A stretch of DNA of 64,000 nucleotides from contig NZ_CP013854.1 in NCBI RefSeq assembly GCF_001698125.1, forward strand, positions 496,001 to 560,000, read 5' to 3'. Made by a program: the position numbers and the translations under genes. The stretch comes from Pseudonocardia sp. HH130630-07. GTDB lineage: Bacteria; Actinomycetota; Actinomycetes; Mycobacteriales; Pseudonocardiaceae. Shown here in pieces: positions 37,090 to 55,582 of this stretch (position 1 is the stretch's first letter; each line of letters opens with the position of its first letter). The notes under the pieces were generated by a model. The model had not been told where the DNA came from, did not search any database, and worked only from the letters and a program-made list of their open reading frames with translations.

Positions 37090-37125
37090 GGGCGTCAGGG
37101 TAGCGACGGGGTCTGACAGGACGCT

Positions 37126-37213
37126 GAGAGCGGGCTCTCGGAGACCACACCGGGAGCGGGCTCTCGGAGACCACACCGGGAGCGGGCTCCCGGGGACCAC
37201 ACCGGGAGCGGGG
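37126..37213. repeat. 26-bp tandem repeat, about 3.3 copies
   Basis: Successive units begin at about 37126, 37152, 37178 and 37204 and share GAGCGGGCTCTCGGAGACC-type sequence with a few substitutions. They lie between the xdhC start and the VOC gene stop. Each unit contains a GAG...CTC mini-dyad, so the array may fold when transcribed. Confidence 0.8.
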
Positions 37214-37214
37214 C

Positions 37215-37577
37215 TCAGAGCGGGCCGGCGAGGTTCAGCGCGTTGCCGTCCGGGTCCTTCACGTGCGCCACCCGCTGGCCCCACGGCATGTCGTTCGGCG
37301 CGCCGTCCACCGTCCCGCCGAGCGCGGTGACCCGCGGCAGCACCGCGTCGACATCGGACGCGGACGCCAGCACGGCGGAGAGCAGGAACCGCTGCGGCCC
37401 CTGTGGCGCGGCGGCGTCGCACACCACGCCCAGCCGGGCACCGAGGACGTCCAGCCCCAGGTAGAAGGGCGCGCCCTCGGCGGGGACCCGCTCGGTCTCG
37501 GTCGCCCCGAGCAGGTCGCGGTAGAAGCGGGCGAGCCGCTCGCCGTCGGTGCTCACGAGCATCGTCTCCAGCGTCAT
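37215..37577 (-). CDS. VOC-family (glyoxalase/bleomycin-resistance-like) protein
   Basis: A 120-residue single-domain protein with the paired beta-alpha-beta-beta-beta modules of the vicinal-oxygen-chelate superfamily: STDGERLARFYRDLLGATET at the start and VAHVKDPDGNALNLAGPL at the end. It could be a metal-dependent isomerase/dioxygenase or a ligand-binding protein; no specific role is visible. The ATG at 37577 is used. Downstream lies the 26-bp tandem repeat. Confidence 0.8.
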   Translation of the reverse strand: MTLETMLVSTDGERLARFYRDLLGATETERVPAEGAPFYLGLDVLGARLGVVCDAAAPQGPQRFLLSAVLASASDVDAVLPRVTALGGTVDGAPNDMPWGQRVAHVKDPDGNALNLAGPL

Positions 37578-37720
37578 ACCGGTGCCGACCCCCGCGGCCG
37601 CCGGTTCTCATCGGTCCGTCCGGGTGACGCACACGACGCGACGCGGGTCCCGCGGAACCGTACGATTCCGGCACGCGTTGTACGCGTCGACGCCCACATC
37701 CGAATCCCGAGTCAGGAGTC

Positions 37721-37837
37721 ATGGACCCCAGCGACAGTCCCGGCGCCGTCCGCAGCCACTGCGGACGGCGACCCCGCACCGCCCTCCGTCCCGCCCGCCC
37801 GCACGGGCCCGATGACCGGGCGGTGACGCTCCGGTGA
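37721..37837 (+). CDS. 38-residue leader peptide overlapping the CNNM transporter gene
   Basis: A short ORF with a strong ribosome site (AGGAG two bases before the ATG). It encodes MDPSDSPGAVRSHC and then a Pro/Arg-rich tail (RRPRTALRPARPHGPDDR, then AVTLR). Its TGA (37835-37837) overlaps the GTG of the CNNM gene (37834) in a different frame, giving a GTGA coupling site. A 12-bp hairpin lies inside it. The Asp/Pro-rich start and later prolines recall MgtL-type leader peptides whose translation senses Mg2+, and CNNM proteins are linked to Mg2+ transport. That function is inference. Confidence 0.55.
   Translation: MDPSDSPGAVRSHCGRRPRTALRPARPHGPDDRAVTLR
37744..37770 (+). promoter_or_regulatory. 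stable hairpin inside the leader ORF
   Basis: A perfect 12-bp stem, CGCCGTCCGCAG/CTGCGGACGGCG, with the tri-loop CCA lies 64 bp upstream of the CNNM start. A ribosome on the leader would open it. It could act as an attenuator or mask RNA. A TACGAT sequence at 37661-37666 is a plausible -10 for this transcript. Confidence 0.6.
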
Positions 37838-39243
37838 TCGGCACGATCTCGGGCATCCTGCTCGGTGTGCTCGTCGTCCTGGCGATCACCGCGCTGACCG
37901 GCTACTTCGTGGCCCAGGAATTCGGCTACATGGCCGTCGACCGCTCGCGGCTCAAGGCCAGGGCCGCCGACGGCGACACCGGAGCCGCGCGGGCACTCGA
38001 CATCACCCGCCGCACCTCGTTCATGCTCTCCGGCGCCCAGCTGGGCATCACCGTCACCGGTCTGCTCGTCGGCTACGTCGCCGAGCCGCTGATCGGCAAC
38101 GGCATCGGCGAGCTGCTCGGCCTGGCCAGCGTCCCGACCGGCGTCGGCGTCGCGATCGGCACCGTGTTCGCGCTGCTGCTCTCCACGGTCGTCCAGATGG
38201 TCTTCGGCGAGCTGTTCCCGAAGAACCTCGCGATCGCCCGCCCGGAGCCGGTCGCCCGCTGGCTGGCCCTGTCCACCAAGACCTACCTGGCGCTGTTCGG
38301 CTGGATCATCAAGATCTTCGACGCCGCCTCGAACCTGCTGCTGAAGATGCTGCGGATCGAGCCGGTGCACGACGTCGAGCACTCCGCGACCCGGCGGGAC
38401 CTGGAAGCGATCATCGACGACTCGAAGGACTCCGGGGACCTGGATCCGGAGCTGGCGACCCTGCTGGACCGGGCGGTGGACTTCAGCGACCGCACCGCGC
38501 GGGCCGCGATGATCCCCCGGCCCCGGGTGTCCTGGGTGCGGGACGACGCGACGGTCGAGAGCCTGGTCGCGCAGATGGCGGTGCAGCACTCGCGCTACCC
38601 GGTGCTCGGCACGCCGCCCGAGGCGGCCGACCCGGACAACGCGCTGGAGCTGGTCGGCGTCGTCTGCCTCAAGGACGTGCTGGCGGCCGGCGAGCGGTTC
38701 GGCGACCGGACGTTCGCCGAGGTGCGGGTGTCGGAGCTGATGCGGGCACCCGTGCTCGTCCCGTCCTCGCTGCCGCTGCCGCAGGTGCTGGCCCGGCTGC
38801 GTGCCGACGACGAGGAGCTGGCCTGCGTGCTCGACGAGTACGGCGGGCTCGCCGGCGTCGTCACGGTCGAGGACATCGCCGAGGAGCTGGTCGGCGAGAT
38901 CACCGACGAGCACGACCAGGCCGGCACCGACCAGGCCACCGCGGCCGGCGACGGCTGGGTCGTCCCCGGCGACCGGCACGTCGACGAGGTCGGCAGGCTG
39001 ATCGACGCCGAGCTGCCCGACGGCGACTACCAGACCGTCGGTGGCCTGGTGATGGCCGAGCTGCAGCGGCTGCCGGAGACCGGTGACGAGGTCGTCGTGG
39101 TGATCGCGGCCGACAACCCGGACGACGAGGACCGCGCCCTGCGCCTGACCGTGCACGAGGTCGACCGGCGGGTGCCCTCGGCGGTGCACCTGGTCTGGAC
39201 CGAGTACTCGGCCAGCGACGACGAGCAGGAGGTCCGGGCGTGA
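37834..39243 (+). CDS. CNNM/CorC-HlyC-family membrane protein (Mg2+/Co2+ transport-linked)
   Basis: A 469-residue protein. The N-terminal CNNM/DUF21 membrane domain (~1-200) includes GYFVAQEFGYMAVDRSRL, SFMLSGAQLGITVTGLLVG and FGELFPKNLAIARPEPVARW. Two CBS domains follow (~215-345; ARAAMIPRPRVSWVR, VLDEYGGLAGVVTVEDIAEE). A CorC_HlyC C-terminal domain (~360-450) reads YQTVGGLVMAEL. Homologues move or regulate divalent cations and use ATP-Mg at the CBS pair. It is translationally coupled to the leader ORF upstream and to a second CNNM gene downstream. Confidence 0.9.
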   Translation: MIGTISGILLGVLVVLAITALTGYFVAQEFGYMAVDRSRLKARAADGDTGAARALDITRRTSFMLSGAQLGITVTGLLVGYVAEPLIGNGIGELLGLASVPTGVGVAIGTVFALLLSTVVQMVFGELFPKNLAIARPEPVARWLALSTKTYLALFGWIIKIFDAASNLLLKMLRIEPVHDVEHSATRRDLEAIIDDSKDSGDLDPELATLLDRAVDFSDRTARAAMIPRPRVSWVRDDATVESLVAQMAVQHSRYPVLGTPPEAADPDNALELVGVVCLKDVLAAGERFGDRTFAEVRVSELMRAPVLVPSSLPLPQVLARLRADDEELACVLDEYGGLAGVVTVEDIAEELVGEITDEHDQAGTDQATAAGDGWVVPGDRHVDEVGRLIDAELPDGDYQTVGGLVMAELQRLPETGDEVVVVIAADNPDDEDRALRLTVHEVDRRVPSAVHLVWTEYSASDDEQEVRA

Positions 39244-54142: not shown

Positions 54143-55582
54143 TCAGGCCCGGCCCGCGGCGTCGCCGGCATGCGCGGTGGGGTCACCCGCGACCGGGTCC
54201 GGCACGTCGTCCTCGGAACGGCCCTCGGAACGGCCGTCACCGGCGTCCGGGCCGCCGTCGAGGTCGGCCGGGTCGATCGGGGTCACGAGGACCGAGGTGA
54301 TGCGGATCCGGCCGCGCGCGTCCTTGCCGCCCTCGCCCTCCAGCCGCAGCAGACCCTCGACGTCGGCGGTCGCGCCGGGCAGCGGGACCTTGCCGAGCCG
54401 CTGGGCCAGCAGGCCACCGACGGTGTCGACGTCCGCGGCGGCCAGTGCCTCGCGCAGCTCGTCCTCCCGCGGGGTGCCGCGGAAGCGCCCGGCGAACAGC
54501 TCCTCCAGGTCCTCCACCGGGACCCGGGAGGCGACCCGGAACGCACCGTCGCCGGCGTCGGCGACCTCGGGCACCTCCTCGGTGTCGTACTCGTCGGTGA
54601 TCTCACCGACGATCTCCTCGAGGATGTCCTCGATGGTGACGACGCCCGCGGTCCCGCCGTACTCGTCGACCACGACGGCCATGTGGTTGCGGGTGCGCTG
54701 CATCTCCCGCATCAGCTCGTCGCTGCGCTTGGAGTCCGGGACGAACGCCGCCGGGCGGATGATCTCCAGCAGCGACTTCTGCGCCGCGCCGCGGAACTGC
54801 GCGTCGTCGCGGGCCCGCACCAGGTCCTTGAGGTAGGCGACGCCGACGACGTCGTCGATCCCCTCGCCGAGCACCGGGATCCGCGAGTAGCCGCTCTTCA
54901 GCGCCAGCCGCAGCACCTTGTCCACGGGGGTGTCGCGCTCGGTCCAGATCACGTCCGGGCGCGGGACCATGATCTCCCGGACCGGGGTCTCCCCCAGCTC
55001 GAACACCGAGTGGATCATCTTGCGCTCGCCCTCGTCGACGACGCCGCGGTTGCTGGCCATGTCGACGAGCTCGCGGAGCTCGATCTCGGTGGAGAACGGC
55101 CCGTCCCGGAAGCCGGGCCCCGGGGTGATCGCGTTGCCCACCAGGATCAGCAGCTTCGCCAGCGGTGAGGCCACCGTGCCCAGCGCACGGATCGGCGCGG
55201 CGAGCAGCAGCCCGATCCGGTACGGGTGCTGACGGCCGAGGGTGCGCGGGCCGACGCCGATGAGGACGTAGCTCGCGAGCACCATGATCACGCCGGTGAG
55301 CAGCAGCCCGATCCAGGGCGCCGGGAACAGCGGCGCGAGCACGATCGCCAGCAGGATCACCGCGGCCGTCTCGCACGTCACCCGCAGCAGCATCAGCAGG
55401 TTGACGTGCCGCGGCCGGTCGGTGACGACGGCGGCGAGCGCCCGGCCACCGGCCCGGCCGGCCCGCACGACCTCCTCCACCCGGGCCCGGGAGATCGACA
55501 TCAGCGCGGAGTCGGCGGCGGCGAACAGCCCCGCGAGCAGGACGAGCAGGACCGTCGTCAGCAGCAGCCAGACGGTGCTCAC
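54143..55582 (-). CDS. CNNM/HlyC-CorC-family protein with CBS pair
   Basis: A 479-residue membrane protein. The DUF21 domain is ~1-185 (FAAADSALMSISRARVEEVV; a hydrophobic core of three or four helices). CBS domains follow (~200-335: PVREIMVPRPDVIWTERD; AVVVDEYGGTAGVVTIEDIL). The CorC_HlyC domain is ~355-430 (VDTVGGLLAQRLGKVPLPGA). The C-terminus is acidic. It is linked to Mg2+/Co2+ homeostasis. It is the third CNNM protein in the window, and this ybeY-CNNM-era context is the universally conserved one. It overlaps ybeY by 4 bp. Confidence 0.92.
   Translation of the reverse strand: MSTVWLLLTTVLLVLLAGLFAAADSALMSISRARVEEVVRAGRAGGRALAAVVTDRPRHVNLLMLLRVTCETAAVILLAIVLAPLFPAPWIGLLLTGVIMVLASYVLIGVGPRTLGRQHPYRIGLLLAAPIRALGTVASPLAKLLILVGNAITPGPGFRDGPFSTEIELRELVDMASNRGVVDEGERKMIHSVFELGETPVREIMVPRPDVIWTERDTPVDKVLRLALKSGYSRIPVLGEGIDDVVGVAYLKDLVRARDDAQFRGAAQKSLLEIIRPAAFVPDSKRSDELMREMQRTRNHMAVVVDEYGGTAGVVTIEDILEEIVGEITDEYDTEEVPEVADAGDGAFRVASRVPVEDLEELFAGRFRGTPREDELREALAAADVDTVGGLLAQRLGKVPLPGATADVEGLLRLEGEGGKDARGRIRITSVLVTPIDPADLDGGPDAGDGRSEGRSEDDVPDPVAGDPTAHAGDAAGRA

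Follow-up and report, generated by a model that had tools for sequence, protein, structure and literature searches.

Coupled leaders and Mg2+ leader peptides are already known kinds of regulatory element, and among the latter MgtL carries an arginine-rich tail. In Salmonella, the YoaL leader peptide overlaps the upstream region of mgpA (yoaE), and a start-to-stop change in the leader was reported to lower MgpA, while high Mg2+ was described as inducing mgpA itself when the pH is neutral or alkaline (PMC12421838). According to the same report, an excess of Mg2+ induces Salmonella CorC and MgpA, which protect the cell against it. Relatives of the CNNM/CorB type have been described as implicated in Mg2+ efflux, with no consensus in the field on the mechanism (PMC8242095).

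We analysed a stretch of 64,000 nucleotides from Pseudonocardia sp. HH130630-07 (the window), in which a small gene, absent from the annotation, ends on the start codon of a CNNM gene. This leader ORF, at 37721-37837, is real, and its conservation goes beyond chance. From its sequence context, it most likely helps to set how often the CNNM transporter, a probable transporter of Mg2+ or another cation, is made. The means by which actinobacteria turn on export of Mg2+ or polyamines are, to our knowledge, little understood. A CNNM leader in several actinobacterial families represents a compact and mutable handle on the control of export, and its combination of an AGU codon with a hairpin is an unusual kind of constraint, through which a ribosome checkpoint can be put to a direct test.

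Leader ORF and downstream genes in the window

The coordinates of the locus are given in Table 1. A preliminary description, made from the letters of the sequence, had reported an AGGAG two bases before an ATG, 38 codons and a TGA overlapping the GTG of the CNNM gene, all of which were found in place, and the perfect 12-bp hairpin inside the ORF was confirmed as well. The description of the later part of the peptide as rich in Pro and Arg is correct for the window (6 Pro, 8 Arg) but does not extend to relatives, in which this tail varies in length and sequence and the leaders range from 11 to 48 aa. These lengths and the variable tails argue against a small functional protein, and an N-terminal extension of the CNNM protein was ruled out by the frame. 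Counted position by position in 47 genus leaders, CAGGA gave the commonest bases at -8 to -4. The gene upstream of the leader is divergent and glyoxalase-like; between it and an XdhC-like gene we observed a tandem array (37128-37212) with a 26-bp unit, GAGCGGGCTCTCGGAGACCACACCGG, in 3.3 copies with 96% matches.

Table 1. Features of the leader and CNNM genes, in window coordinates
Feature	Position	Strand	Description and basis
sigmaE/sigmaH-type (ECF) promoter motif	37654..37679	+	GGAAC 37654-37658, 17-nt spacer, CGTT 37676-37679; predicted
Leader Shine-Dalgarno AGGAG	37714..37718	+	Two bases, then ATG at 37721; read from the sequence
Leader ORF	37721..37837	+	38 codons, MDPSDSPGAVRSHCGRRPRTALRPARPHGPDDRAVTLR; sequence and phase tests
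Conserved core, codons 1-8	37721..37744	+	MDPSDSPG in the window; AGT codon 6 at 37736-37738
Hairpin 1	37744..37770	+	Perfect 12-bp stem (37744-37755/37759-37770), 3-nt loop, 23 nt after the A of the ATG
Possible hairpin 2	37777..37825	+	CACCGCCC (37777-37784) pairs with GGGCGGTG (37818-37825), the SD-like stretch before CNNM; window fold
GTGA stop-start overlap	37834..37837	+	Leader TGA 37835-37837 over CNNM GTG 37834-37836
Long CNNM/CorB-type protein, 469 aa	37834..39243	+	Pfam PF01595 (2.2e-36), PF00571 (8.8e-13), PF03471 (6.1e-16)
Short CNNM protein, 331 aa	39240..40235	+	Pfam PF01595 (4e-41), PF00571 (2.4e-13); GTG start overlaps the stop of the first gene (GTGA)

The long protein contains CNNM, CBS and CorC_HlyC domains, and the pair of a long and a short gene is conserved: a homologous stretch lay downstream in all 111 loci when 3200 nt were compared; in 104 of them it lay between -13 and +8 nt from the end of the first gene, and in 41 the overlap was 4 nt. 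Alignment with MtCorB revealed the GExxPK turn of the pi-helix, with G125, E126, P129 and K130 of the window protein corresponding to G110, E111, P114 and K115. At the Mg2+ ligand positions of TM1, MtCorB S21 aligned with T22 and S25 with V26. The best NCBIfam match was the polyamine exporter PaeA, which at 153.5 bits was far below the cut-off of 500. By analogy with its relatives, export of Mg2+ by the window protein is plausible, with export of polyamines as a possible alternative. A further CNNM-type gene (54509-55561, minus strand) lies directly behind an upstream frame that runs into its start, and inspection by eye found no MDP-AGT leader before three further genes of CNNM type in the window genome (L002, L003 and L006, the last being the gene at 54509-55561).

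Spread of the leader among relatives

CNNM orthologues were identified in 53 of 62 genus genomes (E up to 1e-100). Besides the window, 29 genus loci came from the search and 20 more were taken by coordinates; G016, G034 and G049 of the 53 were left out. Among the first 30 genus loci, the window included, 28 had an MDP leader that ended on or directly before the CNNM start, and the other two (L016 and L030) had MDTPSDRP and MDLPRSTG leaders there as well. Among forty loci of the family outside the genus (L058-L097), MDPSRST, MDPSHSPD, MDDSCSTG and further forms were seen, and some of these forty, e.g. L082, L086, L087, L089 and L097, had no recognisable leader.

The family leader pattern matched 21 times, in 20 of 249 family genomes; CNNM followed in 16 of these cases. 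The pattern occurred once in the window genome. The five matches elsewhere (L037, L041, L042, L043 and L055) were excluded from the 179 loci described below. When the exact pattern ATGGACCCSTMYCGAAGTACCRG was searched in a collection with one genome per species (84,980 species), 11 matches were obtained, from Pseudonocardia (three species), Actinophytocola (two), Kibdelosporangium (three), Tamaricihabitans, Actinosynnema and one entry titled Rhodococcus rhodnii. All 11 stood directly before a CNNM start, including L153, whose CNNM start is equal to that of L025.

Loci beyond the genus are mostly the best-scoring matches of drawn samples and not a random set (order sample, 58 of 140 genomes at E up to 1e-80; class sample, 132 of 196 at E up to 1e-60). 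In other families of the order and class, drifted leader starts were found in the same place, such as MSPYHSPQ, MADSHRPV, MDSDRPGP and MIDSSAQEGSSSQPG, together with forms started by GTG or TTG, e.g. MSSPDPWSTC; a few loci of this group, e.g. L158 and L171, had no leader by the script rule. With the CNNM protein as the query, leaders of drifted form were seen in the class. A class-wide pattern search returned 0 of 393 genomes, a count that says little, as the pattern could not match the window's own AGTCCC and few family members had been drawn. Two groups of loci differed in appearance. Polybasic leader starts (e.g. MRRKRRRHRSPRPG) were seen in the same place and phase in L118, L119, L163, L167, L170, L188 and L195. 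L215 and L216, from another genus and with a CNNM protein of about 37-38% identity, had a longer open leader frame ending in SRPG or SSRRPG, with a GCCGGG/CCCGGC repeat that resembles some leaders of the closer type.

The preliminary description had named a lack of conservation of the leader frame or start in close relatives as a ground against it; when the relatives were compared, the opposite was seen, and the frame, the DP start and the GTGA or ATGA overlap were kept within the genus and, in drifted form, beyond it. Judged by these comparisons, the leader is kept in several actinobacterial families.

Reading phase and stop-start overlap

For a frame-blind search, 330 nt upstream of CNNM were scanned for [AGT]TG-GAY with an AGT behind it, six spacings between the two being allowed. 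The 179 loci used spanned genus, family, order and class; they remained from 211 locus records once exact duplicates (over 150 nt upstream plus 60) had been taken out, along with any record that lacked a CNNM match or had too little sequence. The motif was found in 87 of the 179 loci, one of which, L206, is a chance match (spacing 4). AGT stood at spacing 9, which makes it codon 6, in 84 of the 87, and the distance to CNNM was 2 modulo 3, i.e. the same phase, in 85 of the 87. With L206 left out, the in-phase leaders had 28 different lengths between 29 and 143 nt. L040 kept an intact leader start, but its CNNM frame had an unusual phase, which looks like damage to the gene or the assembly.

As evident from the leader ends, the stop and the CNNM start overlapped as NTGA in 81 of the 84 spacing-9 loci (48 ATGA and 33 GTGA), and the NTG of the overlap was in the CNNM frame in 80 of these 81. 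The remaining three of the 84 either abutted (TAG-ATG) or overlapped as TGATG; in L034, the leader stop lies directly before an ATG. The preliminary description had proposed coupling of the leader to the CNNM gene, and the common phase (85/87) together with the NTGA overlap (81/84) supports a coupling by position.

The 95 non-strict loci showed the same tendency. AGT triplets in their last 140 nt numbered 99 in the leader phase versus 24 and 28 in the other two, and leader-phase stops in the last 45 nt were found in 0 loci, with 47 and 20 loci in the other phases. By a permissive rule, a stop-start overlap was present in 86 of the 95 and in none of the other nine. The control codon AGC also favoured the leader phase (107 vs 51 and 79), whereas CGA showed no such excess (111 vs 129 and 148). 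Since AGC leans the same way and CGA does not, part of the phase bias of AGT may reflect general serine use, and the preference for CGA does not hold generally. In the strict set, one leader-phase stop occurred in the last 45 nt, and the AGT phase count of 106 versus 17 and 22 was biased by selection and was not counted as evidence. Most of the loci are related, so these counts are not independent events, and the 28 in-phase lengths are a better measure. Taken from sequence comparison, the facts on phase, overlap and open frame would be difficult to account for without a translated leader whose end position matters.

Conserved core and codon 6

The best-conserved parts of the leader were the first eight codons or so, above all the rare AGT, followed by the hairpin (mostly from nt 20-25) and the overlap. 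We compared 102 leaders that had been picked by start and overlap and not by AGT; among them some starts are misassigned, as in L019 and L020, where an inner start had been picked. Codon 6 was AGT in 81 of the 102 and AGC in 6, whereas AGT accounts for 1.7% and AGC for 14.7% of the 1872 serine codons in the same CNNM genes. As AGT is kept so far above its usage in CNNM, the constraint appears to lie on the codon or the RNA and not just on serine. Additionally, codon 5 was CGA, rare in the same CNNM genes, in 36 of the 102. Codon 5 varied among CGA, GAC, TGY and CAC, and codon 6 differed in some clades.

The core variants elsewhere included MDPSRSTG, MDPSCSTG and MDPSHSPD, with the consensus MDPSxST. 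Leader starts with MDP or MD were common, but the acidic/proline start was not universal, and MSPYHSP, MADSHRP, MRRKRRRH and others were seen in other families. The preliminary description had likened the peptide to MgtL; this likeness proved to be weak, as the Arg/Pro tail is not conserved, the core is MDPSxST with AGT kept at the codon level, and some clades have polybasic or other starts.

Hairpins and RNA structure

To place hairpin 1 among its relatives, we counted Watson-Crick stems of 6 bp or more that begin between nt 15 and nt 29 and found them in 52 of 84 loci, with none in the other 32; the corresponding control rates were 9.8% for positions within CNNM and 10.5% for leaders with shuffled codons. 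With the threshold lowered to 5 bp, 58 of the 84 loci had a stem, with 39 distinct 5' arms; the stem began at nt 20-25 in 48 of the 58, at 18-19 in four and at 29 in six, a clustering that lies within the searched range of nt 15-29. In 16 gapless relatives, the stem of hairpin 1 was 100% paired, 12 cells were changed on both sides against a shuffled mean of 4.5, and the covariation score was 0.267 versus 0.147 in shuffles. A two-sided change was found in two of eight stem pairs versus 1.7, and further pair types numbered 4 versus 5.0, so that two of the five measures in these relatives were no higher than in shuffles. Overall, the leader folds were somewhat more stable than dinucleotide shuffles, with a mean z of -1.25 over the 84 loci and a value below -1 in 49.

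Sequestration of the CNNM Shine-Dalgarno stretch was considered as a general rule, since folds of single relatives hinted at an arrangement like that of the window, and was rejected: pairing at -14 to +3 was 0.679 in the 84 loci versus 0.677 in codon-shuffled leaders and exceeded 0.6 in 67 of the 84 versus 77% of the shuffled leaders. Pairing of GGGCGGTG with CACCGCCC is kept as a possibility for the window alone, on the basis of its predicted fold.

Three other kinds of element were searched for. Rfam gave 0 matches at E up to 1 for 37100-38100 and five relatives, and the riboswitch reading was dropped. No terminator with a T run was found in 37500-38000 by a scan that is blind to terminators lacking such runs, and the terminator/attenuator reading was dropped on this ground; the window leader likewise has no attenuator-type run of codons for one amino acid.

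Promoter motif and translation starts

Of 47 genus loci with a strict leader, 43 had the motif GGAAY-N15-19-CGTY 34-60 nt ahead of the leader start, with a spacer of 17 in 40 of the 43, as compared with 1 on the reverse strand and 0.35 in mononucleotide shuffles. Outside the genus, it occurred in 16 of 37 loci (control, 1). The consensus reported for sigmaE/sigmaH of Corynebacterium glutamicum is GGAAC-N17-18-cGTT, which the window motif, a predicted promoter, fits (PMC10012870). A scan for sigma-70 sites found none in 37500-38000. Transcription would be expected to begin a few nt past the CGTT and before the leader ATG; with the motif lying upstream of 37721, the leader should be transcribed.

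The CNNM start had an SD-like stretch with a mean duplex energy of -9.1 versus -5.1 at random sites and -6.7 at the leader start. Because the CNNM start has this stretch of its own, the leader need not be obligatory, and because the CNNM ribosome site is also no more paired than shuffles, unfolding alone may not explain the coupling. In one family (L159-L168, L170 and L172-L177), inspection by eye placed the leader ATG mostly 6-7 nt behind a TANNNT box, as in leaderless messages, so that the leader seems to be started differently in different families.

Proposed mechanism and alternative explanations

The reading that we favour, with somewhat better than even confidence, is that of a coupled leader ORF whose main product would be ribosome traffic and in which a checkpoint formed by the early codons and the hairpin would set CNNM output. 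Pausing, abortion, reinitiation and the signal are what we infer to join the observed frame, AGT, hairpin position (in most strict loci), overlap and promoter motif. A stress-type promoter similar to those of sigmaE/sigmaH would give rise to a message whose 5' end lies ahead of the leader. A ribosome starting at the leader ATG would meet hairpin 1 with approximately codons 5-6 in its P and A sites, a geometry obtained with the known distance at which mRNA enters the ribosome. At this encounter, the codons would be the rare AGU and often CGA or UGU, and the nascent chain would consist only of MDPS(D/R/C). Ribosomes that pass the checkpoint would open the structure, stop at the UGA and either reinitiate at the CNNM start or expose the CNNM SD, and the short CNNM gene would follow via the second GTGA overlap. 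CNNM output would thus depend on how well the first leader codons are translated.

The most likely signal may be ribosome stability set by free Mg2+, with the transporter made at high Mg2+, the reverse of MgtL; we offer this only tentatively. Mg2+ sensing by the leader is unproven and is suggested by the kind of gene downstream. As CNNM/CorB relatives are implicated in efflux, the expected sign, if Mg2+ is the signal, is opposite to that of MgtL, and the coupling of the leader would then give more transporter at high Mg2+. The broadest form, which we hold slightly more doubtful still, would be an ancient, actinomycete-wide checkpoint on cation export, in which the hairpin arrests the ribosome at the rare AGU with a five-residue chain, passage depends on free Mg2+ and the overlapping CNNM start is reached solely by ribosomes that get through. 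If true, the transporter pair would be translated in proportion to Mg2+, and the leader ORF would be an Mg2+ sensor of a sign opposite to MgtL, built on the geometry of a codon and a hairpin rather than on a conserved peptide.

The strongest alternative, to which we give a minor but appreciable chance, is that the leader is a plain delivery device that brings ribosomes to the CNNM start by coupling and carries no signal, control being exerted at the promoter. It has been proposed that, in Actinobacteria, short leader genes near start codons enhance translation through reinitiation (PMC4833913), and uORFs have been described as possibly just delivering ribosomes (PMC12548453). The overlap and the conservation of the frame need nothing more, and the upstream motif is of a stress type, yet such a device leaves unexplained both the codon-level AGT at position 6 and a hairpin mostly 20-25 nt from the start.

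These two features would be accommodated by a sensor of translation stress other than Mg2+, which is unlikely in our estimate: slow decoding of AGU/CGA, tRNA charge or ribosome drugs would stall the ribosome at codons 5-6, and the stall would reshape the hairpin and change CNNM output. The rare AGT at codon 6 (81/102) and CGA at codon 5 (36/102) fit this reading, as does a hairpin placed to meet the ribosome at these codons, and a uORF of E. coli has been reported to sense ribosome-targeting antibiotics of several classes (PMC12121999). However, the window leader lacks a run of codons for a single amino acid, codon 5 varies and codon 6 differs in some clades, and there is no obvious reason for a CNNM gene as the output.

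The model of the preliminary description, in which low Mg2+ makes leader translation fail and thereby turns the transporter on with the sign of MgtL, appears highly improbable. The MDP or acidic start is as in ribosome-destabilising leaders, and Salmonella MgtQ is reported to act via acidic codons 2 and 5 together with alternative stem-loops (PMC8092293). In contrast, the leader stop overlaps the CNNM start, so an aborted leader would be expected to reduce the coupled CNNM output, and the CNNM/CorB relatives are implicated in efflux, albeit in a field without consensus (PMC8242095). Equally improbable is an RNA element recognised, in the manner of a riboswitch, by a protein or a small molecule and merely overlapping the ORF, for although the codon-level conservation goes beyond the needs of the peptide and a hairpin is present, Rfam gave no match in the region and five relatives searched and the strongest conservation is that of the reading phase.

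Comparison with known systems

An actinomycete CNNM leader with a preferred rare codon and a hairpin was not found in the open-access literature searched; an entry in a small-ORF catalogue or supplementary table is possible. Two described groups of coupled ORFs resemble it in part. The reinitiation leader genes surveyed in Actinobacteria are also short, unannotated ORFs that end at the start of a structural gene; that survey, as described, left out leaders overlapping structural genes, and its main text is without the words CBS, hemolysin and transporter (PMC4833913). The mycobacterial MIRU coupling ORFs share a coupled ORF and a 4-nt overlap, but they are described as mobile repeats at various genes (PMC12548453), whereas 16 of the 21 matches to the CNNM leader pattern stand before CNNM.

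Among Mg2+ leaders, MgtQ of mgtB (PMC8092293) and MgtL of mgtA (PMC12421838) are likewise described as short ORFs with an acidic start upstream of a Mg2+ transporter gene and with a stem-loop nearby. They differ in that impeded translation of the leader is reported to raise expression of the transporter (PMC8092293, PMC12421838). The CNNM leader, unlike these two, overlaps the start of a gene with relatives implicated in efflux, and what is kept in it is a rare codon with a hairpin at a nearly fixed distance.

YoaL and mgpA also share part of the arrangement: a leader before a gene with a CorC domain, and a downstream gene that is reported to protect from excess Mg2+ (PMC12421838). The layout is similar and the proposed effect has the sign expected here, with the role of YoaL in the Mg2+ response being itself only proposed in that report (PMC12421838). 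The two systems belong to different phyla, and the transmembrane domain of mgpA is described as TerC and not CNNM.
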